Shown piece after piece: positions 19,389 to 62,933 of a stretch of DNA of 64,000 nucleotides. A program made the position numbers and the translations under genes. This stretch comes from a virus. The DNA lies in the IMG/VR virus record IMGVR_UViG_3300042339_001097, positions 1 to 64,000 of that record; one strand, written 5' to 3'. The notes under the pieces were generated by a model. That model was given only the letters and a program-made list of their open reading frames with translations. It did not search any database and was not told the DNA's origin. Positions within the stretch are counted from its first letter, which is position 1, and the number at the start of each line of letters is the position of its first letter.

Positions 19389-19970
19389 ATGAAAAGAATT
19401 AATTTAACCGAAAATGATATTTTTAACATTGTTAATAAGGTTATTGCTGAAGAATCTAAATTAACTAAAACTCCTGAAGAATTAATTAAGAGGTTTTTAT
19501 ATGGTGATAATTCAATCAGACCAAAGATACCTGGTATGAAAAACAGAACTTTTACAATTGTTGAAAAAAGAGGTTTAACTAAAGAATCGTTCCAATTTAT
19601 TGTACAGGATGTAGAATTTATTGCGACAAGTAAAGGGTCAAGCGCCCTTATAAAGGGATATGTAAAGGGTCAGACAAGTGACCCGTCACAACAAACAATT
19701 TTAGAATATATTTGTAATAGTTATGGTGATTTTGTACTTAAGGAATATGAGGGACTTGACGAGAATGATGTTAAAAAACAAAAAACCCCAAAAGTAAAAA
19801 GTGATTCAGACGGAAGTTTTAAAAATAATGTTAAACAAGGTATTGGAAACGTTAAAAATAAATTTCAAGACGTTACACAAAACACTAAAGAAAAAGTTCA
19901 AAACGCTAAACAAGGAATTCAAAATGTTAGACAGGGAATTCAAAACTTTAAAAGGGGGATGACAAAATGA
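19389..19970 (+). CDS. tagged basic protein with heptad-repeat tail
   Basis: The 193-residue product has a tag MKRINLTENDIFNIVNKV then IAEE, a small beta domain (RTFTIVEKRGLTKESFQF), and a basic C-terminus with repeated units of the form Q-G-I-Q-N-V-R/K (residues 150-190), likely an extended amphipathic helix. The stop overlaps the next start as ATGA (19967-19970), so it is translationally coupled to the tagged protein at 19967. Function unknown. Confidence 0.65.
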   Translation: MKRINLTENDIFNIVNKVIAEESKLTKTPEELIKRFLYGDNSIRPKIPGMKNRTFTIVEKRGLTKESFQFIVQDVEFIATSKGSSALIKGYVKGQTSDPSQQTILEYICNSYGDFVLKEYEGLDENDVKKQKTPKVKSDSDGSFKNNVKQGIGNVKNKFQDVTQNTKEKVQNAKQGIQNVRQGIQNFKRGMTK

Positions 19971-21016
19971 AGACAAAATTTGAATTACTATCTGAAGAAA
20001 CTAATAGGATTTTAGAATTAAATTCAAAAATTAATAAAAGGATTTTTTTAAACGAGTCGACTCCTAGAAATTTAACTGTAACTGTAAAGGATAATAAAGG
20101 AGAATTAATTGTTGGTGCAACGGTTTACGACCCTGATAACGCTAATAAAGTAAACGGAGCAACTGATACAAATGGTAATGTTGTATTAAAAAATTTTAGT
20201 GGAGATAAAATAACAATTGCCTTTGTAGGTTTCGAAACACAAACAGTTACTATTGATAATTCAAAAACATCTGTTGAAGTTATTTTAAAACAAGGTAGTG
20301 AATTGAACACTGTTGCAATTACCGCCACAAAAATGGCAAAAATACAGGTTATTGATTCAAAATCAAAAAAACCAATAGGTAATTTAAAAGTTATTCTTAC
20401 AAACAAAAAAGATGATAGCTCAAAAGAAGTTTATACTGATGATAATGGAATTTTTAAATTTGATTATGATACGTATAAAACATTAGTTAATGTTGGTAAT
20501 GAAATTTCACGAAAAGTTTTTAATTTAGAAAAAAAAGAAGGGGAAACAATAGAAATAGATAAAATTTTTAAAACTATTAAATTTGAAAATTATATTCAAG
20601 TTAAGTTACAATTAAAAGATTCCCAAACTAAAGAACTAATAGAAATTACTGACGATGTTTTAGATAATATAAGGATTATTGTTGATGATGACACAGCAAT
20701 TAATAGTAAAGTTGATATAAATAAAAATTTAACTGAAATAGGTGGTTATGAAATCCTTTTAGATTTTAATCCGTTATATATTTCTGATTCTACAAAATTA
20801 ATAGTTAAGTTAAATGGATATTTAAAAAGTAGTGTTCCATTAATATCAAAGCCTACAGGTCCTGTTGTTGTTACATTAACTAAAGAACCTGAACCAGTGG
20901 AAACCGCAAAACTACCTAAGGGTATAAAATTAGGGATGGTATATGAATCTGAAGAATTATATGATGTGATGCAAAGATGGTTAGGACTTTGTGGTACAAA
21001 ATATTGGGAAAAATAA
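19967..21016 (+). CDS. tagged protein with CarboxypepD_reg-like domain
   Basis: The 349-residue product starts MKTKFELLSEETNRILEL and reaches RIFLNE/S, a tag with two hydrophobic-x-Glu sites. Residues 34-105 match the CarboxypepD_reg-like fold of Bacteroidetes outer-membrane proteins: NLTVTVKDNKGELIVGAT, then GATDTNGNVVLKNF, ITIAFVGFETQTVTI and VEVILKQ. A second related beta domain follows (IQVIDSKSKKPIGNLKVI, TDDNGIFKFDYD). The domain in bacteria is found on SusC-type transporters and surface proteins. Its use after a phage tag is unusual. The C-terminus resembles a small helical module (SEELYDVMQRWLGLCG). Confidence 0.65.
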   Translation: MKTKFELLSEETNRILELNSKINKRIFLNESTPRNLTVTVKDNKGELIVGATVYDPDNANKVNGATDTNGNVVLKNFSGDKITIAFVGFETQTVTIDNSKTSVEVILKQGSELNTVAITATKMAKIQVIDSKSKKPIGNLKVILTNKKDDSSKEVYTDDNGIFKFDYDTYKTLVNVGNEISRKVFNLEKKEGETIEIDKIFKTIKFENYIQVKLQLKDSQTKELIEITDDVLDNIRIIVDDDTAINSKVDINKNLTEIGGYEILLDFNPLYISDSTKLIVKLNGYLKSSVPLISKPTGPVVVTLTKEPEPVETAKLPKGIKLGMVYESEELYDVMQRWLGLCGTKYWEK

Positions 21017-21803: not shown

Positions 21804-23465
21804 ATGAGGAATTTATTAACTGAAGTTAGTAAGATAAAAAATAATATGGGTTTGACAGAAGCTGACAAACCAAAGTATAGCCCTGAGGTTAAATCTCTCG
21901 TTGCAATTTTAAAAGACAACAAAGTATATAGTGCTCAAATTCAAAAATTTATTAATAAGATTGAAGAATATTCAAAAGAAGGGTTAGTTGATTTTGGATT
22001 ACTTACAAGAGGTATTTTAAAAACTTTGAAATTAAAAGGTAATAAGGATATTAATGTTTTTGAATTTTTTAAACAACTAACTAAGTCATTAGAAAAAAGA
22101 AAAACTAAAAAAGAAGTTGTTAGTCCCGAAGAGGAACCGTCAATTTTAGATAAAGACATTTACAAGAAAGAAATATTTTTCTTACAGGTTGAACTTTTAA
22201 AATTACAAGAATGGTTAAAACAAACAGGTAAAACTGTTATTATTGTTTTTGAAGGGAGAGATTCAGCAGGTAAAGGTTCAACAATTAAAAAGTTTACTGA
22301 AAACTTAAATCCAAGATATTATAAAGTTATTGCTCTTGGCATTCCGACACCTGACGAAAGAAAAAACTGGTGGGATAGATACAGAAATCAAATTGAGAAA
22401 GGTAAGATAAACTTCTTTGATAGAAGTTGGTATAATAGAGGTTTAGTTGAACCTGTAATGGGTTACGGTTCTTCAGAAGAGTATGAGGACTTTATGGATA
22501 ATGTTCAGGACTTTGAAGAATCATTGGTTGTTGATGGTGATTATCTATTTAAACTTTGGTTCTCAATAGATAAAGAAACTCAGGCTAAAAGATTTGATTT
22601 CAGACAAAAGTCACCATTGAAATATTGGAAGTATTCTGAGAATGATGAAAAGATGCAAGATGTATGGGAAAAGTTCACAGAGTATAAACAAAAACTTTTT
22701 GATAAGACATCAACAGTTAACCACCCTTGGGTTGTTTTAGATTCTAATGATAAGAAAATTTCAGGTTTAAATTCAATTAGATACGTTTTACAAAATATTC
22801 CTTACGATAATAAAGACGAAGATGTTTTAAATAAAGATTTTCCTGAAGCAATGACGGTTTTAAAACCAAATGTTAACGAACAATCAGTTTTTGATGATGT
22901 GAATAAAATTATGGGTATAAAACAAAATCAAAACTCAGATACTTTTTGGGATGACGTTAACAAGTTGACGGGTGCTAGTGATAAATCAAAAGAAGGTGTT
23001 ATTGACGGCGCTAAGAAAATGGTAAAAACAATAAAACCAATAGAAAAAGACAATTTAACTAAAGATGATTTAATTGTTGCCGCAACCATATGGGGGGAGG
23101 CTAGAGGAGAAGGTTCTGAAGGAATGAAAGCAGTTGCAAATGTTATTAGAAATAGAGCAGATAGTCTAAAAAAATCGCCAAAAGATGTTGTTTTACAAAA
23201 AAAACAATTTTCAATTTGGAATGATACAACTACTGATAATTTTTTAAATAAGATAAATAAATCTATTTTAAAAAACCCTAAGGATGGTTCCGCTTGGGAA
23301 ACCGCTCAAAACCTTGTTAAAAATTATATTAAAAAGAAAGGTACTGATAATACAAAAGGTGCTGAATTTTACCATACAACGTCAATTAAACCAAGTTGGG
23401 ATTATTCCAAATTAAAATACACTACAACAATCGGAAATCATAAATTTTATAAACCAATTGTTTGA
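21804..23465 (+). CDS. tagged fusion: polyphosphate kinase 2 and SleB-type cell-wall hydrolase
   Basis: The 553-residue product has three parts. Residues 1-19 are a tag (MRNLLTEVSKIKNNMGLTE/A). Residues 118-336 are a PPK2 domain: Walker A GRDSAGKG (151-158), GIPTPDERKNWWDRY, the FFDRSWYNR block (204-212) and the lid and KYSEND region. PPK2 enzymes transfer phosphate between polyphosphate and nucleotides. Residues 421-551 match the SleB/hydrolase_2 family: AATIWGEARGEGSEG with catalytic Glu432, AVANVIRNRA, KQFSIWN, AEFYHT and IGNHKFY. Such enzymes cut peptidoglycan. A linker (362-395) holds two similar words, FDDVNKIMG and FWDDVNKLTG. I know of no such fusion. Confidence 0.88.
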   Translation: MRNLLTEVSKIKNNMGLTEADKPKYSPEVKSLVAILKDNKVYSAQIQKFINKIEEYSKEGLVDFGLLTRGILKTLKLKGNKDINVFEFFKQLTKSLEKRKTKKEVVSPEEEPSILDKDIYKKEIFFLQVELLKLQEWLKQTGKTVIIVFEGRDSAGKGSTIKKFTENLNPRYYKVIALGIPTPDERKNWWDRYRNQIEKGKINFFDRSWYNRGLVEPVMGYGSSEEYEDFMDNVQDFEESLVVDGDYLFKLWFSIDKETQAKRFDFRQKSPLKYWKYSENDEKMQDVWEKFTEYKQKLFDKTSTVNHPWVVLDSNDKKISGLNSIRYVLQNIPYDNKDEDVLNKDFPEAMTVLKPNVNEQSVFDDVNKIMGIKQNQNSDTFWDDVNKLTGASDKSKEGVIDGAKKMVKTIKPIEKDNLTKDDLIVAATIWGEARGEGSEGMKAVANVIRNRADSLKKSPKDVVLQKKQFSIWNDTTTDNFLNKINKSILKNPKDGSAWETAQNLVKNYIKKKGTDNTKGAEFYHTTSIKPSWDYSKLKYTTTIGNHKFYKPIV

Positions 23466-42238: not shown

Positions 42239-42621
42239 TGGTGGAGGTGCTGGGTTTCGAACCCAGGTCCAAAAATGTTTACGATAAAACACTACACGTT
42301 TAGGATAATGTTAGTTCTTAACATTCCAAAATATTCTGTTTAGATTAACCTTCCGTAACAGACAAACAAGGTTTTTGTTCCTTTTCGGATAGAAACCACA
42401 CCACGGTACAAGCTTCTGTTGCAAGGTTATATGCTCACCGACCCCGTTGTATACTAATCTTAGATTAGGCTACAGTTACTTCTTCAGTACGGATTAAACC
42501 GAGTGTAGAAAGTTTTGCAATTGTGTTGCCGTTTGTGTTTTAAACCAGTTTTACAGGGTTAGTTTAGCCCCGACGTGCGTTTTATAATAAATTCATTCCT
42601 GTCAAATCCAGAAACACCCCC
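42239..42621 (-). ncRNA. ssrA: tmRNA
   Basis: A 383-base tmRNA with all terminal features. The 5' end reads GGGGGTGTTTCTGG then ATTTGACAGG; the 3' end holds the T arm CTGGGTTCGAAACCCAG and CACCTCCACCA with CCA encoded. The acceptor GGGGGUG pairs with CACCUCC. Near RNA position 90 the sequence AAACGGCAACACAATTGC likely contains the resume point: one frame gives a 21-residue tag from GGC ending VTVA before TAA; another gives 11 residues from GCA. Neither ends in the usual ALAA. tmRNA rescues stalled ribosomes and marks the nascent chain for proteolysis. The host will have its own copy. Confidence 0.95.
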
Positions 42622-44624: not shown

Positions 44625-44655
44625 TAAAAAAGGGGGTTTATTCCCCCTTTTTCTT
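44625..44655. terminator. bidirectional terminator between convergent genes
   Basis: AAAAAGGGGG and CCCCCTTTTT arms with a 6-base loop after the peptidase gene and within the end of the convergent ClpC-like gene. Confidence 0.75.
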
Positions 44656-46701
44656 TCTTGGTCTTTTCACTTTCGGTGTTTCATCAGGTTGTACTTCAAT
44701 TTCTGATATTGACACTTCCTCCTCATTGATTTCAATATTGTAGGACTTATCCATTACAATTTTTTCACGTAATACTTCATCTGAAATATAGTCTTCAATC
44801 TTTTCTTGGATTGCTCTCTTCAAAGGACGTGCTCCGTAAACATCATCAAATCCAACTTTTGAAACAAAGTCAATTACTGACTGACCGAAGTTAATGTTGT
44901 ATCCCAATTTTGATAAACGAGACTTTAATTTGTTGACCTCAACCAAAACAATTTTTTGAATATCGTCATTTTGAAGTGTGTTGAATACAATTACCTCATC
45001 CAAACGATTGATAAACTCAGGTGCGAAGTGGTTCTTCAATTCTTTGTTTAACATTGTTTTCTTAAGTTCTTCGTTGGTATAAACATTACCTGTCTTACTA
45101 AATCCAACCCCCGCTCCAAACTCTTGCATCTTTTTTACCCCAAGATTTGAAGTCATAATGATTAAACAGTTCTTGAAATTGATTTTTCTTCCAAAACTAT
45201 CTGTCATATACCCTTCATCCAATAGTTGAAGTAATGCTGAGAATATGTCTTTGTGTGCTTTCTCAACCTCGTCAAATAATACCACAGAGTATGGTTTGGT
45301 CTTTACCTGTTCTGTAAGTTGTCCACCTTCATCATATCCTACATAACCTGGAGGTGAACCAATCAAACGAGATACGGTATGTTTATCTTGATATTCAGAC
45401 ATATCAACTCGGATAAGATTTTCATCACTCCCAAAGATTTGTTTTGCCAATTCTTTTGCCAATAAAGTCTTACCAACACCTGTTGAACCTAAAAATATAA
45501 ATGAACCAATTGGTTTATTTGGGTCTTTAATACCTAATCTATTTCTACGAATAGATTTTGCAATCTTTGTAACCGCTTCTTTTTGTCCAATTACTGATTT
45601 ATTTAATTCTTCTTCTAAATTAATAAGAGCAATCTTATCGTCTAAATTAAGTTTTGTTAGAGGTATTTTTGTCATTGTTGACACCACCTCGTAAACCAAT
45701 TCTTCTGAAATTGTTTTTCTATTATCCAAAAGAGTTTGTTCAAACTTCTTCTTTTCAATATCAAGTTGTGATAAAACTTTCTTTTCTTTATCTCTTAAGT
45801 TCGCAGCTTCTTCGTAATTCTGTTTTTTAACAACAAGTAATTTTTGTTGTTTAATCTCTAATGCCTGACGTTTTAATTCGTCAATTATTTCAGGATTTTT
45901 TACATCTACTTGAGCTCTTGCTCCGACTTCATCCAAAATATCAAATGCCTTATCGGGAAACTCTCTGTCGGTGATATATCGCTCGGCTAAATCAACACAG
46001 ATTTGTAGAATATTATCGGTATAATTTACTTTGTGATAATTTTCGTATTTGTCTTTAACATTCTTAAGGATTTGTAATGTTTCTTCTTTTGTTGAAGAAC
46101 TAACCACCACTTTTTGGAAACGTCTATCTAACGCTCCGTCCTTCTCAATTTGTTTTTTATACTCATCCAATGTCGTTGCTCCAATACATTGTATTTCACC
46201 TCTTGATAATGCAGGTTTTAAAATGTTAGAAGCGTCCATTGAACCTGAGGCGTTACCTGCACCTACAATCGTATGGATTTCATCGATGAATAAAATAACA
46301 TTTGGGTTTGCTTGAATTTCTTCCAGGATAACCTTTAATCGTTCTTCAAATTGACCACGATACTTTGTTCCTGCAACAACCGAATTCATCTCTAATGATA
46401 AAATACGTTTATCAACCAAGTTTCTTGGACAATCACCTTCAAAAATCTTCATTGCCAATCCCTCAACAATTGCCGTCTTACCACAACCAGGTTCACCGAT
46501 GATAATTGGGTTGTTTTTCTTTCTTCTTGAAAGAATTTGGGCGATACGTAATATTTCGTCTTCCCTACCGACAACGGGGTCTAACTTACCTTCTTCGGCA
46601 AGTTTAATAAGGTCACGACTAAAATTGTCTAACACAGGTGTATTTGAATTTACCTCTGTTTTTTTTGGTAGTTTCCCACCCTCTTCAACTGAATCTGTCA
46701 T
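44638..46701 (-). CDS. ClpA/ClpC-like two-domain AAA+ unfoldase without N-domain
   Basis: The 687-residue product begins MTDSVEEGGKLPKKTEVN and goes directly into D1: FSRDLIKLAEEGKLDPVV, Walker A GEPGCGKT (69-76), FIDEIHTIVGAG, then a UVR-like middle segment (EEAANLRDKEKKVLSQLD), and D2 with GSTGVGKT, VLFDEVEKAHKDIF, LIGSPPGYVGYDEGGQLT and RPLKRAIQ. It unfolds proteins and threads them, in bacteria into ClpP. The N-terminal substrate domain of about 150 residues is missing. AGVGFS in D2 is at the usual position of the ClpP-binding loop. Acidic/Lys-rich tail (TPKVKRPRKKKGE). Promoter TACATTTG at 46750. ATG at 46701 preferred over the in-frame ATG at 46746. Confidence 0.92.
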   Translation of the reverse strand: MTDSVEEGGKLPKKTEVNSNTPVLDNFSRDLIKLAEEGKLDPVVGREDEILRIAQILSRRKKNNPIIIGEPGCGKTAIVEGLAMKIFEGDCPRNLVDKRILSLEMNSVVAGTKYRGQFEERLKVILEEIQANPNVILFIDEIHTIVGAGNASGSMDASNILKPALSRGEIQCIGATTLDEYKKQIEKDGALDRRFQKVVVSSSTKEETLQILKNVKDKYENYHKVNYTDNILQICVDLAERYITDREFPDKAFDILDEVGARAQVDVKNPEIIDELKRQALEIKQQKLLVVKKQNYEEAANLRDKEKKVLSQLDIEKKKFEQTLLDNRKTISEELVYEVVSTMTKIPLTKLNLDDKIALINLEEELNKSVIGQKEAVTKIAKSIRRNRLGIKDPNKPIGSFIFLGSTGVGKTLLAKELAKQIFGSDENLIRVDMSEYQDKHTVSRLIGSPPGYVGYDEGGQLTEQVKTKPYSVVLFDEVEKAHKDIFSALLQLLDEGYMTDSFGRKINFKNCLIIMTSNLGVKKMQEFGAGVGFSKTGNVYTNEELKKTMLNKELKNHFAPEFINRLDEVIVFNTLQNDDIQKIVLVEVNKLKSRLSKLGYNINFGQSVIDFVSKVGFDDVYGARPLKRAIQEKIEDYISDEVLREKIVMDKSYNIEINEEEVSISEIEVQPDETPKVKRPRKKKGE

Positions 46702-46749
46702 AAAATAGTTTTTATTAAAATTAAATGAATTTGTTCTTAAATTCAACTA

Positions 46750-51941: not shown

Positions 51942-53687
51942 ATGAGTTTATCTAAAGAAGCCGTTTTAATGGAGTATGCCAAGTGTATGAAATCAACACC
52001 ATACGCCCTTAAAACTTATTTACAGACGTATGACAACACTGTTTCAAAGTATGTCCCATTAGAGTTATTTCCTGACCAAATTAGTCTGGTTGAGGATTAC
52101 GAGAATTATAATGAAAATATTGCACTAAAGTATAGACAAGCCGGAGTATCTACGGTAACAGCTGCTTGGTCATCAAAAAAACTTGTTTTTGCTAAAAAGA
52201 ATAGTCCTGAAAAAGTTTTAATTATTGCAAATAAGTTAGATACTGCGGTTGAGGTTGCAAATAAGATTAGAGGATTTACTGACCAATGGCCTAGTTGGGT
52301 TGGTGTTGGATTTTCATCTGAAAAAAACTCACAAAGACATTTTAAATTAACTAACGGATGTGAAGTTAAGGCGGTTGCAACATCTAAGGATGCTCTTCGT
52401 GGTTATACACCGACAATATTAATATTTGACGAGGCTGCATATATTGAAGCAGATAGTGATTTTTGGGCGGCTTGTATGGCATCTTTATCCACAGGTGGTA
52501 AGGTGATAGTTGTATCAACACCAAACGGATATGATGCAATTTATTATGAAATATACGACCAAGCGTTAAAGGGAATGAATGAATTTAAAGTTTCCGAAAT
52601 GGTTTGGTGGAAAGACCCAAGATATGCAAAAGATTTATCATTAGTTAATGTTAAAGATATTATTCATTATTACTTAAATCGTAATGAATATCCTGATGTT
52701 GAAATTATTGAATATAACAATAAAGAAAAAAACTTTGATGAGATAAGACAACTAATTTCACAGGGTTATAAACCAAACTCATCTTGGTATGAGTCAATGG
52801 TTAAAAAACTTAAGTACGATAAACGTAAGGTCAATCAGGAGTTGGAATGTGCGTTTCTTGGTTCGGGGGATAACGTATTTAATTCTGATATGTTGGAAGA
52901 TTTAAGGATAAATATGGTTAAGGAACCTCCTACAAAAATGATGGGTGGTGGACTATGGATTTGGAAAGAACCTGAAATAGGTAAAAAATATATTATGGGT
53001 GTTGACGTATCTCGTGGTGATAGTGAAGACTTTTCAACATTCCAAATTGTTGATTTTGACTCAAGAGAACAGGTTGCTGAGTACGTTGGTAAACTTCCTC
53101 CTGACACTTTAGCTGAAATATGTTATAAATGGGGTAATATGTATAATGCATTTATTGTTGTGGATATCACTGGTGGTATGGGAGTTACGACATCTTTAAG
53201 ATTGAGAGAGTTAGGATATAGAAATGTATATGTTGATGGAGTTGATATTTCAAATAAGTGGCAATATGACCCAAAGGCGACTGAAAAAATACCAGGAATT
53301 AACTTTAATGCTAAACGAGTTCAAATTATTGCAACATTTGAGGAATATTTAAGACATGGGTTTAGAATAAACTCAACTCGTTTATTAAATGAGATGAACA
53401 CATTTATTTATGTGAATGGAAGACCTGACCACCAAAAGGGACAACATGATGACTTGATTATGTCTGTTGCCATGGCTCTTTATGTTGGTGAAACATCATT
53501 TTCATCACTTAATAAGGTTACAAATCAAACAAAAGCGATGATTGACTCATGGACTGTTAATACAAATGAATTTAACAGAAGACAATTCATGGACCCGGTA
53601 ATTTCACAACAACAAGAAAACATTAAACGAGAGGCAACAAAAAGTGACTACGAAAACTATTTATGGTTATTCGGGGGACGAAGATAA
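51942..53687 (+). CDS. terL: terminase large subunit (T4 gp17-like)
   Basis: The 581-residue product has the two-part terminase layout. The N-terminal ATPase carries KYRQAGVSTVTAAW (Walker A type, residues 63-75) and ILIFDEAAYIE (Walker B, 159-169), with the SGGK..VVSTPNG coupling block. The C-terminal nuclease has MGVDVSRGDSEDFSTFQI with metal-binding Asp residues and VVDITGGMG, then HDDLIMSVAMAL. It cuts concatemeric phage DNA and powers its entry into the head via the portal. Sequence style (YRQAGVST, GVDVSRG) fits the T4 gp17 group. No small terminase is obvious upstream. Confidence 0.96.
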   Translation: MSLSKEAVLMEYAKCMKSTPYALKTYLQTYDNTVSKYVPLELFPDQISLVEDYENYNENIALKYRQAGVSTVTAAWSSKKLVFAKKNSPEKVLIIANKLDTAVEVANKIRGFTDQWPSWVGVGFSSEKNSQRHFKLTNGCEVKAVATSKDALRGYTPTILIFDEAAYIEADSDFWAACMASLSTGGKVIVVSTPNGYDAIYYEIYDQALKGMNEFKVSEMVWWKDPRYAKDLSLVNVKDIIHYYLNRNEYPDVEIIEYNNKEKNFDEIRQLISQGYKPNSSWYESMVKKLKYDKRKVNQELECAFLGSGDNVFNSDMLEDLRINMVKEPPTKMMGGGLWIWKEPEIGKKYIMGVDVSRGDSEDFSTFQIVDFDSREQVAEYVGKLPPDTLAEICYKWGNMYNAFIVVDITGGMGVTTSLRLRELGYRNVYVDGVDISNKWQYDPKATEKIPGINFNAKRVQIIATFEEYLRHGFRINSTRLLNEMNTFIYVNGRPDHQKGQHDDLIMSVAMALYVGETSFSSLNKVTNQTKAMIDSWTVNTNEFNRRQFMDPVISQQQENIKREATKSDYENYLWLFGGRR

Positions 53688-53693
53688 CATTAT

Positions 53694-55157
53694 ATGGGAA
53701 CAGGAGATAGAAAAAAATCAGGTAGAATATTTACCGGCTCAAAATTAATTGTTGAGGGCCAAGAAAATTTCGGTTCATTAACCGGTAAATTAAAAAAGTT
53801 TGTTTTTTTAATAAAACAAACAAAGGGTGAACCTGGACCTCCTTTAACTCCAACACCTTCTGTAACCCCGACCAATACTCCAACACCTTCTTTAACTCAA
53901 ACTCAAACACCGACGCCATCTTTAACCCAAACTCAAACACCGACGCCATCTTTAACCCAAACTCAAACACCTACAAACACTCAAACTCAAACACCGACAC
54001 CATCAATAACTCAAACCGTAACGACTACAAACACTCAAACTCCGACACAAACACCAACTAATACTATAACACCAACCAATACTCAAACTGTAACACCAAC
54101 TGAAATATCTTGTGTTTGTTATGATTTAAGTTATATTACAGGAGCTCCTCTCGCTCCTCCACTATCATATAGTGGTATTTCATGTTCGGGAGGTACAATT
54201 ACAGGGTCAATGTTACCTAATACAACAACAAGGTTCTGTGCTAAACAAAATTCAATTAGTGCACCTGGTATTTCAATAGGTATAGATACACCTTTTTGTA
54301 ATGCAGGAGTTTGTCCGACACCTACCCCAACACCAACACCTTCAATAACTCTGACTAATACGCAAACCCAAACACCAACACCAACACCTTCAGTAACTCA
54401 AACTCAAACTCAAACCCCTACTAATACTCAAACCACTACTAATACTCAAACTCCAACACCTTCAATAACTTCAACAATCACTCCTACCCAAACTACTACA
54501 CCGACACCGACAATACCAGAATGTCGTTGTTGGTATTTAACAAACCCTACTGCAGGTGCCTTAAATTATAATTATAACGATTGTTCGGGGACAGTATTTA
54601 TTGGTAATATAAATGCTGGAGAATCAATCCAAGTATGTGCACGAATTGTTAATGAAGATATATCAATAATTAAAGCTAATTATGGTCCATGTACTGGTGG
54701 TACTTGTAATAATGAGACATTTTATGGATTTTTTGGTAATACAGTACCTTTTAATACAGGGTATTGTAATTCATACTCAGCAATTACTTTTACAAATAAC
54801 CCACCAAGTAGTCAAGGATTATTTAGTGGAGGAACTGCATTTTTAGATGTAAACTTTAACTTAAGAAATAATACGAGAAATACAATACCACCATATTTTT
54901 ATCAAGTTGTAGAAGGTGTGGTTTCGACTAGTGCATCTGCTTGTACTAGAAATAGTGGAACTTGTGTTACTAATCAATATCGACTTGAAGCAACAGGAGC
55001 TACTGCAACAGTTAGTATGTCACCTCCATTTGTTGATGCTCCGACATCGTTTACATTACCTAAAAACTATGTAGTATATATGTGTTTGTGTTCAGAACCT
55101 ACTGGAAGTAATCTAAGTGTTACTAATTTAGGTTCATGTCCATATAATATTGGATAA
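53694..55157 (+). CDS. TPTPS-repeat late protein, probable adhesin or decoration
   Basis: The 487-residue product starts MGTGDRKKSGRIFTGSKL. Residues 50-140 and 205-280 are low-complexity Thr/Pro/Ser/Gln repeats (PTPSLTQTQTPTPSLTQT), separated by similar beta-rich Cys-containing domains (SCVCYDLSYITGAPLAPP, ECRCWYLTNPTAGALNYN). The C-terminal part is also beta-rich (TFTNNPPSSQGLFSGGTA). Thr/Pro-rich linkers of this kind are common in Bacteroidetes phage surface proteins; here it lies between terminase and portal, where T4 has no such gene. Role as head decoration or fibre is inference. Confidence 0.65.
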   Translation: MGTGDRKKSGRIFTGSKLIVEGQENFGSLTGKLKKFVFLIKQTKGEPGPPLTPTPSVTPTNTPTPSLTQTQTPTPSLTQTQTPTPSLTQTQTPTNTQTQTPTPSITQTVTTTNTQTPTQTPTNTITPTNTQTVTPTEISCVCYDLSYITGAPLAPPLSYSGISCSGGTITGSMLPNTTTRFCAKQNSISAPGISIGIDTPFCNAGVCPTPTPTPTPSITLTNTQTQTPTPTPSVTQTQTQTPTNTQTTTNTQTPTPSITSTITPTQTTTPTPTIPECRCWYLTNPTAGALNYNYNDCSGTVFIGNINAGESIQVCARIVNEDISIIKANYGPCTGGTCNNETFYGFFGNTVPFNTGYCNSYSAITFTNNPPSSQGLFSGGTAFLDVNFNLRNNTRNTIPPYFYQVVEGVVSTSASACTRNSGTCVTNQYRLEATGATATVSMSPPFVDAPTSFTLPKNYVVYMCLCSEPTGSNLSVTNLGSCPYNIG

Positions 55158-55195: not shown

Positions 55196-57052
55196 ATGAG
55201 TGAAAATAAACTAACGGTATGGCAACGGTTATCCCAAACATTTGGACCCAATTCTCTTTTGGGTCAGGATTATCCTACGTACAAATATGATAAGAAGGAA
55301 CTTTTAAAGACAACTTCTAAATCTGAATATGATAGAGAGAAATTACAAGCTCAACAAACATATTACTTAGCAAACCAATGGGGTAGGGTTGAGAATAATC
55401 TATATACACAGGCAGTTTACTATGAACCAACTCGTTTAGCGTCTTTTTATGACTACGAGTCAATGGAATTTACACCTGAAATTGGTGCGGCTTTAGACAT
55501 TTATGCTGAAGAGTCAACAACAATTAATCAGGATGGTTTTATGTTACAAATCTATTCTGAGTCAACAAGAATTAAATCTATTTTAGGTGATTTATTTAAC
55601 AATGCGTTAGATATTAATACTAACTTACCTATGTGGATAAGAAACACATGTAAGTATGGTGATAATTTTGTATATCTTAAATTAGACCCTGAAAAAGGTA
55701 TTATAGGATGTATGCAATTACCAGTCATCGAGATTGAAAGATTGGAAGCAGGTATGGGTGCTCACTCAACAGATTCGACAACAAATCCTGAAAAGAAACA
55801 TTTAAAATTCAAATGGAAACAAAAGGATTTAGAGTTTAATACTTGGGAAGTTGCACACTTTAGATTACTTGGTGATGATAGAAGACTTCCTTATGGAACT
55901 TCTATGTTAGAAAAGGCTCGTCGTATTTGGAAACAATTATTGTTATCTGAAGATGCTATGTTAATTTACAGAACATCAAGAGCACCTGAAAGACGTGTAT
56001 TTAAAGTATTTGTTGGTAACATGGATGATGCGGATGTTGAACCATATATCCAAAGATTTGCTAATAAGTTTAAGAGAAGTCAAACGGTTGACCATAAGAC
56101 AGGTAATGTGGATATGAGATTTAATCAGATGGCGGTTGACCAAGATTATTTCGTTCCTGTTAGAGATACTACACAAACAATGCCGATTGAGACATTACCG
56201 GGAGCTGCGAACTTATCAGAGATTGCCGATATTGAGTATATCCAAAAGAAATTGTTAACAGCTCTTCGTGTTCCTAAAGCATTTTTAGGTTTTGAAGAAA
56301 CTGTTGGTGATGGTAAGAATTTATCATTACAAGATATTCGTTTCGCTCGTACCATCAATCGTATTCAAAAGAATATGATTTCTGAATTAAATAAAATTGC
56401 GATAATACATTTATTCATATTAGGGTTTGAGGATGAAATATCAAACTTTACATTAAGTTTAACAAATCCTTCAACACAAGCGGATTTACTAAAGATTGAT
56501 GTATGGAAAGAAAAAATACTATTATTTAAAGATATGGTTGCCGACCCAGGAAGTGGTATTGCGGCAGTTTCTATGTCATGGGCTAAGAAACATATTCTTG
56601 GATTTTCTGATGATGAAATTAAACTTGATTTACAACAACAACGTATCGAAAGAGCCGTTGGTGAAGAACTTAAGAAAACTGCTGAAGTTATTACTCACAC
56701 AGGTATATTTGATAACATAGACAAGTTGTATGGTAAAAAAGAAGGTGAACCGGCTGGAACACCTACTGAAGGTGGGGCAACTGACACAGGAGGAGGATTA
56801 GGAGCACCACCTGATTTAGGAGGAATGGGTGATATGGGAGGAGAGTCACCGGCACCACCTGAATCACCATCACCAGCACCACCTGCAGAAGGAGGGACTG
56901 TACCTGAAAACGATGAGAGAAATAAAGAAAATTTAAATATTTTATTAGAAAATAGAGGTATGTTAAATGAGGATGAATTGATTGATTTGTCAAAAGTTCA
57001 AAATTCTTTAGGTGAAATGGGTACCGAATTAGATAAACTACTAAAGAATTGA
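55196..57052 (+). CDS. portal protein (T4 gp20-like)
   Basis: The 618-residue product reads like T4 gp20: EMTPEIGAALDIYAEEST-type segment (EFTPEIGAALDIYAEEST), NTCKYGDNFVYLKLDPEK, YGTSMLEKARRIWKQLLL, RAPERRVFKVFVGNMDD and the VPKAFLGFEETVGDGKNL block before a long helix. It forms the ring at the head vertex through which DNA passes. The C-terminal 90 residues are Gly/Pro/Met-rich (DTGGGLGAPPDLGGMGDM, SPAPPESPSPAPPAEGG) and then helical, an extension beyond the T4 type. TATTTATA is upstream. Confidence 0.95.
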   Translation: MSENKLTVWQRLSQTFGPNSLLGQDYPTYKYDKKELLKTTSKSEYDREKLQAQQTYYLANQWGRVENNLYTQAVYYEPTRLASFYDYESMEFTPEIGAALDIYAEESTTINQDGFMLQIYSESTRIKSILGDLFNNALDINTNLPMWIRNTCKYGDNFVYLKLDPEKGIIGCMQLPVIEIERLEAGMGAHSTDSTTNPEKKHLKFKWKQKDLEFNTWEVAHFRLLGDDRRLPYGTSMLEKARRIWKQLLLSEDAMLIYRTSRAPERRVFKVFVGNMDDADVEPYIQRFANKFKRSQTVDHKTGNVDMRFNQMAVDQDYFVPVRDTTQTMPIETLPGAANLSEIADIEYIQKKLLTALRVPKAFLGFEETVGDGKNLSLQDIRFARTINRIQKNMISELNKIAIIHLFILGFEDEISNFTLSLTNPSTQADLLKIDVWKEKILLFKDMVADPGSGIAAVSMSWAKKHILGFSDDEIKLDLQQQRIERAVGEELKKTAEVITHTGIFDNIDKLYGKKEGEPAGTPTEGGATDTGGGLGAPPDLGGMGDMGGESPAPPESPSPAPPAEGGTVPENDERNKENLNILLENRGMLNEDELIDLSKVQNSLGEMGTELDKLLKN

Positions 57053-57075: not shown

Positions 57076-57786
57076 ATGAGATTTGGATTAATAAAAACAT
57101 TAGTAGAAAATAAATTAATTGATTCCTTTGTTAAAGGAACTCTTAAAACTGATATGCGACTTTTTGAAAGAAAATTACTTAAAAATAGTGATTTTTGTAA
57201 ATTAATGTCGATATATGATAATTTAAAAGAAAATAAAGAATTAGATAAAGAAACCGCAACTTATTTGGTTGATGATTTATCTAATGAATTTAGACAAATT
57301 AAATTATCTGAAAATACAGTAAATTTTGTTAAAAGTTGGACTAAGGATATTGTACTTGAAAACAAATACAAAACAATTGATGAATTATTTTATGGTGATT
57401 TACTAAAACCTGAAAAGAAATCAATTGCTAAAAAATCAATCGTTGAGTCTTTAGGTAAAAAACCAATAATAAAAGAAACTAAATCTACAAACGTACCAAT
57501 TAGTTCAATGTTAAAAGTTGCTAATAAAACGGCTGAAAAATATTTAGAAAACCTAACTGAATCTGAAAGAAATTCTGTTAAAGAAATTTTATCATCAAAT
57601 GATGAAAATTTAAAAACAAAATTTACAGAATTAAAAGAAACTGCAATTCAAAAAATTGACACTCTTATTTCAGAGTCTGATGAAGAACTATCAAAAGTTT
57701 TATTAGAAACAAAAGAAAGACTTACAAATGTAAAACATTCTAAAAAAGAATATATTAAATTAATGAATTTAACACAAAATTTATAA
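57076..57786 (+). CDS. charged helical protein, probable prohead core component
   Basis: The 236-residue product (MRFGLIKTLVENKLIDSF at the start) is Lys/Glu-rich and helical throughout (DEELSKVLLETKERLTNV). In T4 the small core proteins gp67 and gp68 lie between portal and protease; position and composition suggest a similar role, but the similarity is not at sequence level. Its terminator lies inside the antisense bS21 gene. Confidence 0.55.
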   Translation: MRFGLIKTLVENKLIDSFVKGTLKTDMRLFERKLLKNSDFCKLMSIYDNLKENKELDKETATYLVDDLSNEFRQIKLSENTVNFVKSWTKDIVLENKYKTIDELFYGDLLKPEKKSIAKKSIVESLGKKPIIKETKSTNVPISSMLKVANKTAEKYLENLTESERNSVKEILSSNDENLKTKFTELKETAIQKIDTLISESDEELSKVLLETKERLTNVKHSKKEYIKLMNLTQNL

Positions 57787-57966
57787 ATCTTTATTTTTTG
57801 AATTTTTATAAATAGCATCATTTAAAATCTGACGTTTTATGTCAGATTTTTTTTTGTAGTTTTTTCTGTTTTGTAACTCTACAATCATTTTGGTTTTTAA
57901 AACTTTTGATTTAAAGTTTTTTAAAGATTTTTCTAAATCGTTATTTTTTACGGGAATTATTAGCAT
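57781..57966 (-). CDS. rpsU: ribosomal protein bS21 homologue
   Basis: The 61-residue product MLIIPVKNNDLEKSLKNF then KSKVLKTKMIVELQNRKN has the bS21 pattern: N-terminal strand, two basic helices, and KKKSDIKRQILNDAIYKN. bS21 is a small-subunit protein near the mRNA exit and anti-SD region. Phage copies are known from large phages and are thought to enter host ribosomes. No AGGAGG is seen ahead of the ATG (TTGTCAAAATG), unlike the strong site that I recall for Bacteroidetes rpsU. It lies antisense in a head operon and overlaps 57786 by 6 bases. Confidence 0.85.
   Translation of the reverse strand: MLIIPVKNNDLEKSLKNFKSKVLKTKMIVELQNRKNYKKKSDIKRQILNDAIYKNSKNKDL
57824..57855 (+). terminator. terminator embedded in antisense bS21 gene
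   Basis: AAATCTGAC and GTCAGATTT arms with a 7-base loop followed by a T run on the plus strand. It lies inside the bS21 coding sequence on the other strand. Confidence 0.65.
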
Positions 57967-58034
57967 TTTGACAACTCGGTTTTTGTTGATTAATATTACT
58001 TACATAAATAAACGAAGATATGAAAAACTTGTAA

Positions 58035-58499
58035 ATGAAAAAAGGAAAAAGTTGTGTGGTTAGAGGATATAAACAAATAAAATGTTCTTATGGTACGGTT
58101 GACTCAAAAAATTTAAAATCAATTTATTTAAATATCCAATCTTGGGTTGAACCAAAGACACACGAAGAAAGTTGGAATAGAATTGTATCAGTATTTAATA
58201 AAAATATTAAAACAAACTTAATAGAAATTATCGACAATGACTTACTAAATGAAAAATTTATAGTTGATTTAGATTTAAGGACAAGTGGAATAACAATTAA
58301 GAAAAGGTCTTTTATGAATTTAGAAGTAACATTCTTTTTGAAAAAAGATATTGATTTTAAATCTGTAGAACTAAAAAATTCTATTAAAAATATCATAAAT
58401 TATGTAGAAAAAGAATCTTTTAAAAAATCAAAATATTTCAAATTTTATCTTACAAAATCGAACAAAATAAAAACAACCGATAAAATAGAAAGTATTTAA
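58035..58499 (+). CDS. unknown basic protein
   Basis: The 154-residue product begins MKKGKSCVVRGYKQIKCS and is Lys-rich with a repeated strand-helix pattern (GITIKKRSFMNLEVTFFL). It lies between the core protein and protease genes. T4 has no exact equivalent here. Possible minor head protein. Not recognised. Confidence 0.55.
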   Translation: MKKGKSCVVRGYKQIKCSYGTVDSKNLKSIYLNIQSWVEPKTHEESWNRIVSVFNKNIKTNLIEIIDNDLLNEKFIVDLDLRTSGITIKKRSFMNLEVTFFLKKDIDFKSVELKNSIKNIINYVEKESFKKSKYFKFYLTKSNKIKTTDKIESI

Positions 58500-58521: not shown

Positions 58522-59241
58522 ATGCAAAATTACAAAATATTAGGTCCAAAAGAGACAGGAAAAGGTATTTTAATTGAGATGGATGCGGGATATGTTTCCC
58601 CGACAGAAAAACATAATCAAACATTCTTACAAGAAAGTAGGGATTTTAAAGATTATTCAAAACCATTTGAGTTCTATGCCGTTCTACAAAAATATAATAC
58701 ACCCAATAGAAACGGTAGAATATATCCTGAAAGAATTTTAAAGAGAGAATCTGAAAATTATATAAAAAATTATATCGGTAAGAAAACCGCTTTATCAGAA
58801 CTTAACCACCCTGAGTCTTCATTGATAGATTTAGATAGAGTATCACACATGATTACAGAGATGTGGTGGGATGGTAATGTTCTATTAGGTAAGTTATTAC
58901 TTCTAACTTCACCAGGGTTCCATGAAAGAGGTATCGTATCAACAAAGGGTGACCAAGCGGCAAATCTATTAAGATTAGGTGTAACGTTAGGTATATCGTC
59001 AAGAGGGGTAGGTTCCTTAAAGAAGGTAGGTGACCAAAATGAAGTTCAAGATGATTTTGAATTAATTTGTTTTGACTTGGTATCTTCACCATCAACACCA
59101 GGAGCTTATTTATTTACTGAACCTGATGGAAGATTTGCGTTTGAGGAGAACCTACAAGAAGAAAATGAGATGAAAGCATCAAGAACAGTTAACAAATCGC
59201 TTGATTTAATGGGAAGACTTTCCGATTATTTAGGAAAATAA
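58522..59241 (+). CDS. prohead protease (T4 gp21-like)
   Basis: The 239-residue product has the T4 gp21-type serine protease signatures: FYAVLQKYNTPNRNGRIY, the catalytic His in LSELNHPES (near residue 95), LLGKLLLLTSPGFHERG and the catalytic Ser in LGISSRGVGSL (near residue 158), then DFELICFDLVSSPSTPGA. In T4 it cleaves the scaffold, capsid and internal proteins after hydrophobic-x-Glu. This is the enzyme that would process the tags found in this window. It lies in the usual order after the portal. Confidence 0.92.
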   Translation: MQNYKILGPKETGKGILIEMDAGYVSPTEKHNQTFLQESRDFKDYSKPFEFYAVLQKYNTPNRNGRIYPERILKRESENYIKNYIGKKTALSELNHPESSLIDLDRVSHMITEMWWDGNVLLGKLLLLTSPGFHERGIVSTKGDQAANLLRLGVTLGISSRGVGSLKKVGDQNEVQDDFELICFDLVSSPSTPGAYLFTEPDGRFAFEENLQEENEMKASRTVNKSLDLMGRLSDYLGK

Positions 59242-61040: not shown

Positions 61041-62933
61041 ATGGGAGCATTATTAGAAAGTGGATTAGTAGGTAACATCGGTCTTAAGCACTTGAAAGTT
61101 ATCAAAGAAGACACTATAAACAAATGGGACAAATTAGGGTTCCTTGAAGGTCTTAAAGGCCACCTAAAAGAAAATGTTGCACAATTGTATGAAAACCAAG
61201 CGTCACATTTAATTAACGAAGCATCTTCTACGGCAGATTCAGGTTCATTCGAGACTGTGGTATTCCCTATCATCAGACGTGTGTTCTCTAAATTATTGTC
61301 TAACGAAATCGTTTCTGTACAAGCTATGAACTTACCAATCGGTAAATTGTTCTACTTTGTACCTCAAATCCAAGGTTATTCTGGAGGTTCTTCAATCAAT
61401 GGTGTAAACGTTACTTCAGGTGACCACTACGCACCTGTAGGTTCTCCTGGAAACTATCCTGGTGACCCTAACGCAGGTTATGGTACATCTTCAGGAGCAT
61501 ATACAAAAAATCTTTATGATTTATTCTACGAAGGAACTGAGCCAGGTCTTGACCCAGCAGGTTTATTCGATTATTCTAAAGGACGTTTTGTAACTTATAC
61601 TGCAAACACACCGACAGTTGCTTGGTCTAATGGTGCGTTAATTGCTTCAGGTTATACTCTTCTTGGACAAGTTGCGGCTTCAAAAACTGAATATCGTAAA
61701 GTTATTGTTGCACTTTCAGGTTTAAGTGCTAGTGGTATAGGTAAATTAATCGGACCTGACGGACAAGAGCAAGATACTGAATCTTTCTTATCTAATTTGG
61801 TTCTTTATACTAATAACACAAACGTTGCTACCGACTTGGGTGTTGCAACATATACTCCACTTTTATATCGTGTTGTAACTCAGAAGTATGGTCAGGCTAT
61901 GTATGGTCCTCAATACACTTCAACACAAGCTGCATTCCCTGGAGCTCAAACTACAGGTGGTAATGGTGGTTATTATGATAACGTATGTGACCAAAAAGGA
62001 TTTATCTATTTAGAAGTTGATTTACAAGTTCCAGCATGTATCGCATGTGGACAATCAACTCCTGATGGATATTCAGGTTCTTCATTGACTAACCAATATT
62101 GGTCAGGAGCTACTGCTGGTACTGGTAATGCATATACTAACATCCAAGCTGCTTGGAGACGTTACGAAGAGTTAGAATTTGAAGATAAGATTGGTGAAGT
62201 TTCTTTTGACCTTGAGTCAGTAACTGTTTCTGTAACAGAAAGAAAATTAAGAGCACAATGGTCTCCAGAAATGGCACAAGACGTTGCGGCATTCCACAAC
62301 ATCGATGCTGAAGCTGAATTAACAGCTTTATTATCTGAGCAAGTGGCGGCTGAAATTGACCGTGAAATTTTACGTGACTTACGTAAAGGTGCGGCTTGGA
62401 CATTACGTTGGGATTACAACGGATGGAAGCGTCTGAACAACCAATCAACTCCTTACACTCAAAAGGACTGGAATCAAACGTTGATTACTGCAATCAACCA
62501 AATTTCAGCTCAAATCCATAAGTCTACTTTAAGAGGTGGAGCTAACTGGATTGTTGTATCTTCTGAAATCAGTGCTATCTTTGATGACTTGGAATACTTC
62601 CACGTATCAAATGCGGCTCCTGAGCAGGACCAATTCAACATGGGTATTGAGAGAGTTGGTACATTAAGTGGTCGTTACCAAGTATACCGTGACCCATACT
62701 TCCCAGCTAACACTGTGTTGATTGGTCATAAAGGTACTTCTTTATTGGATACTGGTTACATCTACGCTCCATACGTACCGTTACAATTAACTCCAACAAT
62801 GTATAACCCATTCAACTTTACTCCTATCAAGGGTATTATGACACGTTACGCTAAGAAGATGGTTAATAACCGTTTCTATGGACGTATCATCGTTGATGGT
62901 GTTCGTACATTCGATTTGAATGAGTTAAGATAA
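61041..62933 (+). CDS. major capsid protein (T4 gp23-like)
   Basis: The 630-residue product is the shell subunit. Its first 60 residues are a helical propeptide ending in SHLINE/ASS; the cleavage in T4 gp23 is after residue 65. Then FETVVFPIIRRVFSKLLS, PIGKLFYFVPQIQGYSGG, the middle insertion, FEDKIGEVSFDLESVTVS, KLRAQWSPEMAQDVAAFH and RYQVYRDPYFPANTVLIG follow in the T4 order. It is longer than gp23 (521). No promoter motif lies directly before it; expression with the scaffold gene is likely. Terminator at 62953. Confidence 0.96.
   Translation: MGALLESGLVGNIGLKHLKVIKEDTINKWDKLGFLEGLKGHLKENVAQLYENQASHLINEASSTADSGSFETVVFPIIRRVFSKLLSNEIVSVQAMNLPIGKLFYFVPQIQGYSGGSSINGVNVTSGDHYAPVGSPGNYPGDPNAGYGTSSGAYTKNLYDLFYEGTEPGLDPAGLFDYSKGRFVTYTANTPTVAWSNGALIASGYTLLGQVAASKTEYRKVIVALSGLSASGIGKLIGPDGQEQDTESFLSNLVLYTNNTNVATDLGVATYTPLLYRVVTQKYGQAMYGPQYTSTQAAFPGAQTTGGNGGYYDNVCDQKGFIYLEVDLQVPACIACGQSTPDGYSGSSLTNQYWSGATAGTGNAYTNIQAAWRRYEELEFEDKIGEVSFDLESVTVSVTERKLRAQWSPEMAQDVAAFHNIDAEAELTALLSEQVAAEIDREILRDLRKGAAWTLRWDYNGWKRLNNQSTPYTQKDWNQTLITAINQISAQIHKSTLRGGANWIVVSSEISAIFDDLEYFHVSNAAPEQDQFNMGIERVGTLSGRYQVYRDPYFPANTVLIGHKGTSLLDTGYIYAPYVPLQLTPTMYNPFNFTPIKGIMTRYAKKMVNNRFYGRIIVDGVRTFDLNELR

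Follow-up and report, generated by a model that had tools for sequence, protein, structure and literature searches.

A phage gene for the ribosomal protein bS21, encoded antisense to the head genes among which it lies, has no Shine-Dalgarno (SD) site and carries on its opposite strand a predicted intrinsic terminator for the head-gene transcript. The explanation that we regard as probable is that this SD-less bS21 stands outside the feedback acting on the host gene, rpsU, and that the antisense terminator ends the head mRNA. The gene was found in a window of 64,000 nucleotides (positions 1 to 64,000 of the 66 kb IMG/VR virus contig IMGVR_UViG_3300042339_001097); its identity, its synteny and its lack of an SD can be read from the sequence, as can the terminator's conservation, covariation, strand bias and recurrence. 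The genes concerned are:

51942-53687, plus strand: terminase large subunit, TerL (Pfam/PHROG)
55196-57052, plus strand: T4-type portal protein, gp20 (Pfam/PHROG)
57076-57786, plus strand: conserved head-region gene, ORF57076, whose stop overlaps the bS21 stop (ORF list, comparison of relatives)
57781-57966, minus strand: phage bS21 gene, 61 aa, ATG start (Pfam, PHROG and PDB relatives)
58035-58499, plus strand: conserved gene divergent from bS21 (ORF list, comparison of relatives)
58522-59241, plus strand: prohead protease, gp21 type (Pfam/PHROG)
61041-62933, plus strand: major capsid protein, gp23 type (Pfam/PHROG)

To our knowledge, no ribosomal protein is commoner in phages than bS21. The initial annotation had recognized a bS21 gene on the opposite strand amid head genes, with no visible SD, and this description is borne out by the protein matches and by the leader energy given below. 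The product of ORF 57781-57966 matches PF01165 (Ribosomal_S21; E 3e-10, 40.1 bits against a curated cut-off of 27), which rules out a chance ORF, as well as PHROG 21469, 'ribosomal protein S21' (E 1.2e-6), and its closest solved structures are ribosome bS21 chains, including that of 7jil, identified in PMC9723584 as the F. johnsoniae ribosome. At the level of sequence, the ORF is thus confirmed as a genuine bS21 gene; it is the one bS21 of the contig. Tyr53 of the phage protein, invariant in A1, aligns with Tyr54 of F. johnsoniae bS21 and supplies the aromatic residue that at position 54 covers the anti-SD in Bacteroidetes. The gene is convergent with ORF57076 (the stop codons overlap at 57781-57786) and divergent from ORF 58035-58499, and its antisense placement among head genes is kept in all syntenic clades; L184 and L188, in which bS21 lies outside the present gene order, were left out of the synteny argument. 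The phage family and the SD-less genes indicate that the host is probably a member of the Bacteroidota. Only four named phage records match the phage bS21 protein, all of them uncultured. The interval between TerL and the portal gene holds, at 53694-55157 (plus strand), a 487 aa protein with long Thr-Pro-Gln repeats and without a Pfam match.

The gene and its location have a close precedent. Chen and co-authors describe a bS21 of Bacteroidetes jumbo phages that lies on the reverse strand amid the same head genes, has an aromatic residue at position 54 and is expressed late in infection (Chen et al., 2022; PMC9723584). The window shares with those phages a reverse-strand bS21 flanked by two conserved hypothetical genes amid TerL, portal, protease and capsid genes, as well as the aromatic residue and an AT-rich genome. 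On their proposal, the phage protein takes the place of host bS21 and gives phage mRNAs an advantage; they also infer joint transcription of bS21 with an opposite-strand neighbour (Chen et al., 2022). A word search of the main text of PMC9723584 found 'Shine' only in background and reference passages and no mention of terminators. The survey of viral ribosomal proteins by Mizuno and co-authors likewise counts bS21 among virus genes; its main text makes no mention of terminators, of SD sites or of placement on the opposite strand (Mizuno et al., 2019; PMC6375957). What is known, then, is the bS21 gene and its place; the additions made here are the absence of the feedback element and the coding on two strands.

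Two elements upstream of the bS21 start codon bear on its expression:

57967-57974, minus strand: TTGTCAAA, directly before the bS21 ATG, with no SD site (sequence, leader energies)
58004-58010, minus strand: TATTTAT, putative promoter element, 37 nt before the bS21 ATG (motif enrichment before genes)

TATTTAT(A) is heavily over-represented in the 60 nt upstream of window genes, on the same strand (31 of 65, with about 2 expected); in a larger gene count it precedes 36 of 91. Codirectional sites number 37 and reversed ones 6. The motif, which is the T4 late promoter TATAAATA in reverse complement, is likely to be the promoter of this phage.

SD strength was expressed as the duplex energy of the 22-25 nt before the start codon with UCACCUCCUUUCU, which we take to be the Bacteroidia 16S tail. 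The bS21 leader reaches -3.1 kcal/mol, a value that 38% of random 22-mers from the window equal or better. An extended SD, in contrast, precedes every one of 80 host rpsU genes (-17.6 to -22.1 kcal/mol; the set was retrieved with the F. johnsoniae protein and is mostly from Flavobacterium), whereas all 101 distinct phage bS21 genes lack an SD, the strongest leader among them giving -7.2 kcal/mol; neither the window gene nor any of the 101 falls below the -13 kcal/mol that characterizes the rpsU class. The initial annotation had called for this comparison of host and phage leaders and had named an SD in related phages as the observation that would speak against its proposal; on this point the proposal holds, and an SD concealed in related phages is ruled out. 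The other half of the proposal, a possible change in mRNA selection during late infection, coincides with the hypothesis of Chen et al. (2022), so that the proposal as a whole is supported in part. In passages of PMC9976891, the rpsU gene of F. johnsoniae is reported to be autoregulated through its extended SD, and phage bS21 is speculated upon (McNutt et al., 2023). The phage gene resembles autoregulated rpsU in coding for the tyrosine that covers the anti-SD, but differs from it in having no extended SD. Because the element is absent from all of the phage genes and present in all of the host genes, phage bS21 is very probably without the SD-dependent autoregulation of rpsU. Its escape from rpsU feedback is plausible, given the published rpsU mechanism. 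The passages of PMC9723584 and PMC9976891 at our disposal contain no comparison of phage leaders.

It may be, however, that the leader has no SD merely since the whole phage has none, that bS21 is under some other control and that the difference from rpsU means nothing for regulation. We give this reading a substantial chance, a little short of even. It draws on the leader energies of the window, weaker than -5 kcal/mol for 62 of 65 genes (median -0.8), so the missing SD is the default of the present phage and no peculiarity of bS21. Against it, all of the host genes have kept the extended SD, through which rpsU is autoregulated in F. johnsoniae (McNutt et al., 2023), and a gene without the element cannot use the switch, whatever the cause of its absence. 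This alternative concerns the leader half of the argument and is compatible with the terminator. The sole window gene whose SD comes close to the rpsU class (19967-21016, plus strand; -13.1 kcal/mol) was considered as a target of ribosomes free of bS21; it codes for carboxypeptidase-regulatory-like domains, and its SD falls in the end of an overlapping gene. As to the function of the protein, the aromatic residue stacking on the anti-SD is kept, as Tyr53, which suggests that phage bS21 covers the anti-SD just like the host protein; with the anti-SD hidden, no switch between mRNAs with and without an SD is therefore predicted.

The second half of the argument, which the initial annotation had missed, lies within the coding sequence, on the other strand:

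57824-57850, plus strand: intrinsic terminator stem-loop AAAATCTGAC-GTTTTAT-GTCAGATTTT, antisense within bS21 codons 39-48 (both-strand scan, folding, covariation)
57847-57855, plus strand: T-tract of the terminator, antisense of bS21 AAA lysine codons (sequence, both-strand scan)

The terminator scan, run on both strands, found a 12-pair stem and a T-tract on the plus strand, the stem beginning 38 nt downstream of the ORF57076 stop. For a 50-nt plus-strand RNA that includes it, the folding energy is -12.8 kcal/mol (z -4.65), and the stable hairpin is followed directly by the T-tract, as in an intrinsic terminator. Other strong terminators of the window are intergenic or at gene ends, except for those inside two short and perhaps spurious ORFs that overlap the genes next to them. 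Hairpins that serve two convergent genes at their junction are well known as bidirectional or overlapping terminators. The window hairpin also lies at a convergent junction but, unlike those, it is within conserved coding sequence and is predicted for the other strand only. Judged by titles and abstracts, we recognized no counterpart in the literature for antisense terminators embedded in coding sequence.

An alternative would be that the hairpin serves the bS21 mRNA, for instance by binding bS21 or by a translation pause that controls the phage gene, and the stem of clades A and B does fold well on the bS21 strand too (z -6.14 for the window). We consider it very unlikely. The T-tract occurs on the head-gene strand alone, and in all six genes tested the terminator score of the bS21 mRNA strand is zero. 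Moreover, G.U pairs of the head strand become A.C mismatches that break the fold of the bS21 mRNA in clade C (-14.1 vs -7.3 kcal/mol) and in L019 (-10.8 vs -4.9 kcal/mol). The stem also moves and changes sequence between clades, and bare terminators stand in where bS21 is absent (see below). The G.U/A.C asymmetry and the strand of the T-tract are the reasons why we assign the terminator to the head-gene transcript.

The stem is kept in all close relatives, while the codons of the loop vary. In clade B (portal about 70% identical) it reads AAAATCTGTC..GACAGATTTT, and the substitution D42V (GAC to GTC) is accompanied by a silent change of an Arg codon from CGT to AGA; in L244, L257 and L286 a different pair has changed, from A-T to G-C. 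Across 18 distinct sequences, 97.2% of cells are paired and 11 are changed on both sides, a result as high as which was obtained in none of 500 shuffles. The covariation is real but narrow, because only two pairs covary, through few events, and six never vary. Two doubly changed pairs, along with the unrelated stems described below, are nevertheless the pattern of selection on pairing rather than on sequence. The stems also have fixed codons that are rare in the phage (CAG 14%, GTC 3%, CCC 4%, TCC 3%, TCG 5%).

These observations bear on the simplest alternative, namely that this is an ordinary phage bS21 as published and that the hairpin is a by-product of its amino acids and of AT-rich codons, with no role. 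It has the following in its favour: the bS21 arrangement has been published, the KKxS..R motif is conserved in the protein and yields the A-tract, the poly-lysine codons give the T-tract for free, and under a milder null, in which each gene's own codons are shuffled, the observed stem is reached in about 1-5% of cases per gene. Protein-preserving draws from codon usage, in contrast, reached the observed score in 10/6000 cases for the window, 28/6000 for clade B, 0/6000 for clade C, 5/6000 for clade D and 0/6000 for both L233 and L297; these six genes were picked for having a stem, and the rates (0 to 0.5%) are not family-wide. The compensatory and synonymous changes and the invariant rare codons likewise argue against a mere by-product, as do the recurrence of at least four unrelated stems among the related phages and the finding of an embedded terminator in none of the 80 host rpsU genes. 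On balance we think the by-product reading improbable, although it has a better chance than a role in the bS21 mRNA.

Among those unrelated stems are that of clade C, GAGCCCTTCGT-TCT-ACGGAGGGTTT, that of clade D, TCGGTTCT..AGAACCGA, and a 13-pair stem near codon 51 in the L232/L297 group. According to a protease tree, the genes with the clade C stem fall into one supported group and those with the codon-51 stem into another, whereas the TCTGxC type requires several changes, gains or losses. The terminator is not obligatory for phage bS21: 43 of 101 distinct phage bS21 genes, nearly all antisense in the same operon, have no strong terminator by the test used, a count that also speaks for the by-product reading and for which we rejected the terminator as a universal feature. 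In some other clades it lies at the end of bS21 or just beyond, and L194, L200 and L210, which have the end-of-gene form, carry terminators on both strands. In neither L223 (protease 93% identical) nor L224 was a bS21 detected, and both carry an ordinary terminator between the genes instead, at:

L223 4424-4447: plain intergenic terminator, in the gap where bS21 would lie
L224 4434-4452: the same

In clades A and B no more than about 25 nt separate the end of the ORF57076 match from the bS21 match. Clade C has an additional short ORF, apparently membrane-spanning, that appears to occupy the gap between ORF57076 and bS21 (L176 4171-4431; same gap in L179 and L185). The first free site for a terminator is inside bS21 because the gap is either short (A, B) or filled (C).

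We infer from the above that the terminator is used in the cell, that phage bS21 enters ribosomes and that it escapes feedback, in the following way. A promoter of its own on the minus strand would drive phage bS21 at about the time when the head genes are expressed. Translation would proceed without an SD, and the supply of the protein would therefore not fall when ribosomes already hold bS21, the condition that acts as a brake on host rpsU. The protein would probably join host 30S subunits as bS21 and keep the anti-SD covered; both PMC9723584 and PMC9976891 report that E. coli ribosomes take up the bS21 of Pelagibacter phage HTVC008M. RNA polymerase coming from the portal/ORF57076 unit would halt inside bS21, at about codons 39-48, leaving a head mRNA whose tail is antisense to the end of bS21 and which does not run through the rest of the gene or its promoter; the overlap may allow some antisense damping of bS21 by head mRNA. 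We lean, with some reserve, towards the view that the gene is selected on both strands, as bS21 and as head-mRNA terminator, which would tie bS21 production and head transcript length at one site and, with the missing SD, place supply outside the host feedback loop.

A phage tmRNA with the tag AKLSTLGLIRTEEVTVA (42239-42621, minus strand; Rfam RF00023, 126 bits) is the second translation-related gene on the contig, and a ClpA/ClpB-type AAA ATPase is encoded at 44638-46746 (minus strand); McNutt et al. (2023; PMC9976891) speculate that a protease for the removal of host bS21 may be encoded by such phages. A single ORF at 21804-23465 (plus strand) combines a polyphosphate kinase 2 domain with a cell wall hydrolase domain, in that order.

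The leader contrast predicts that phage bS21 would be synthesized even with host ribosomes full of bS21, and with its embedded terminator the gene is a clear candidate case of coding on two strands. Should head mRNAs terminate within bS21, metatranscriptome reads that cover the gene without being strand-specific would include head-gene mRNA. This would bear on the published evidence for late bS21 expression, and such reads could add to the joint-transcription signal of Chen et al. (2022).
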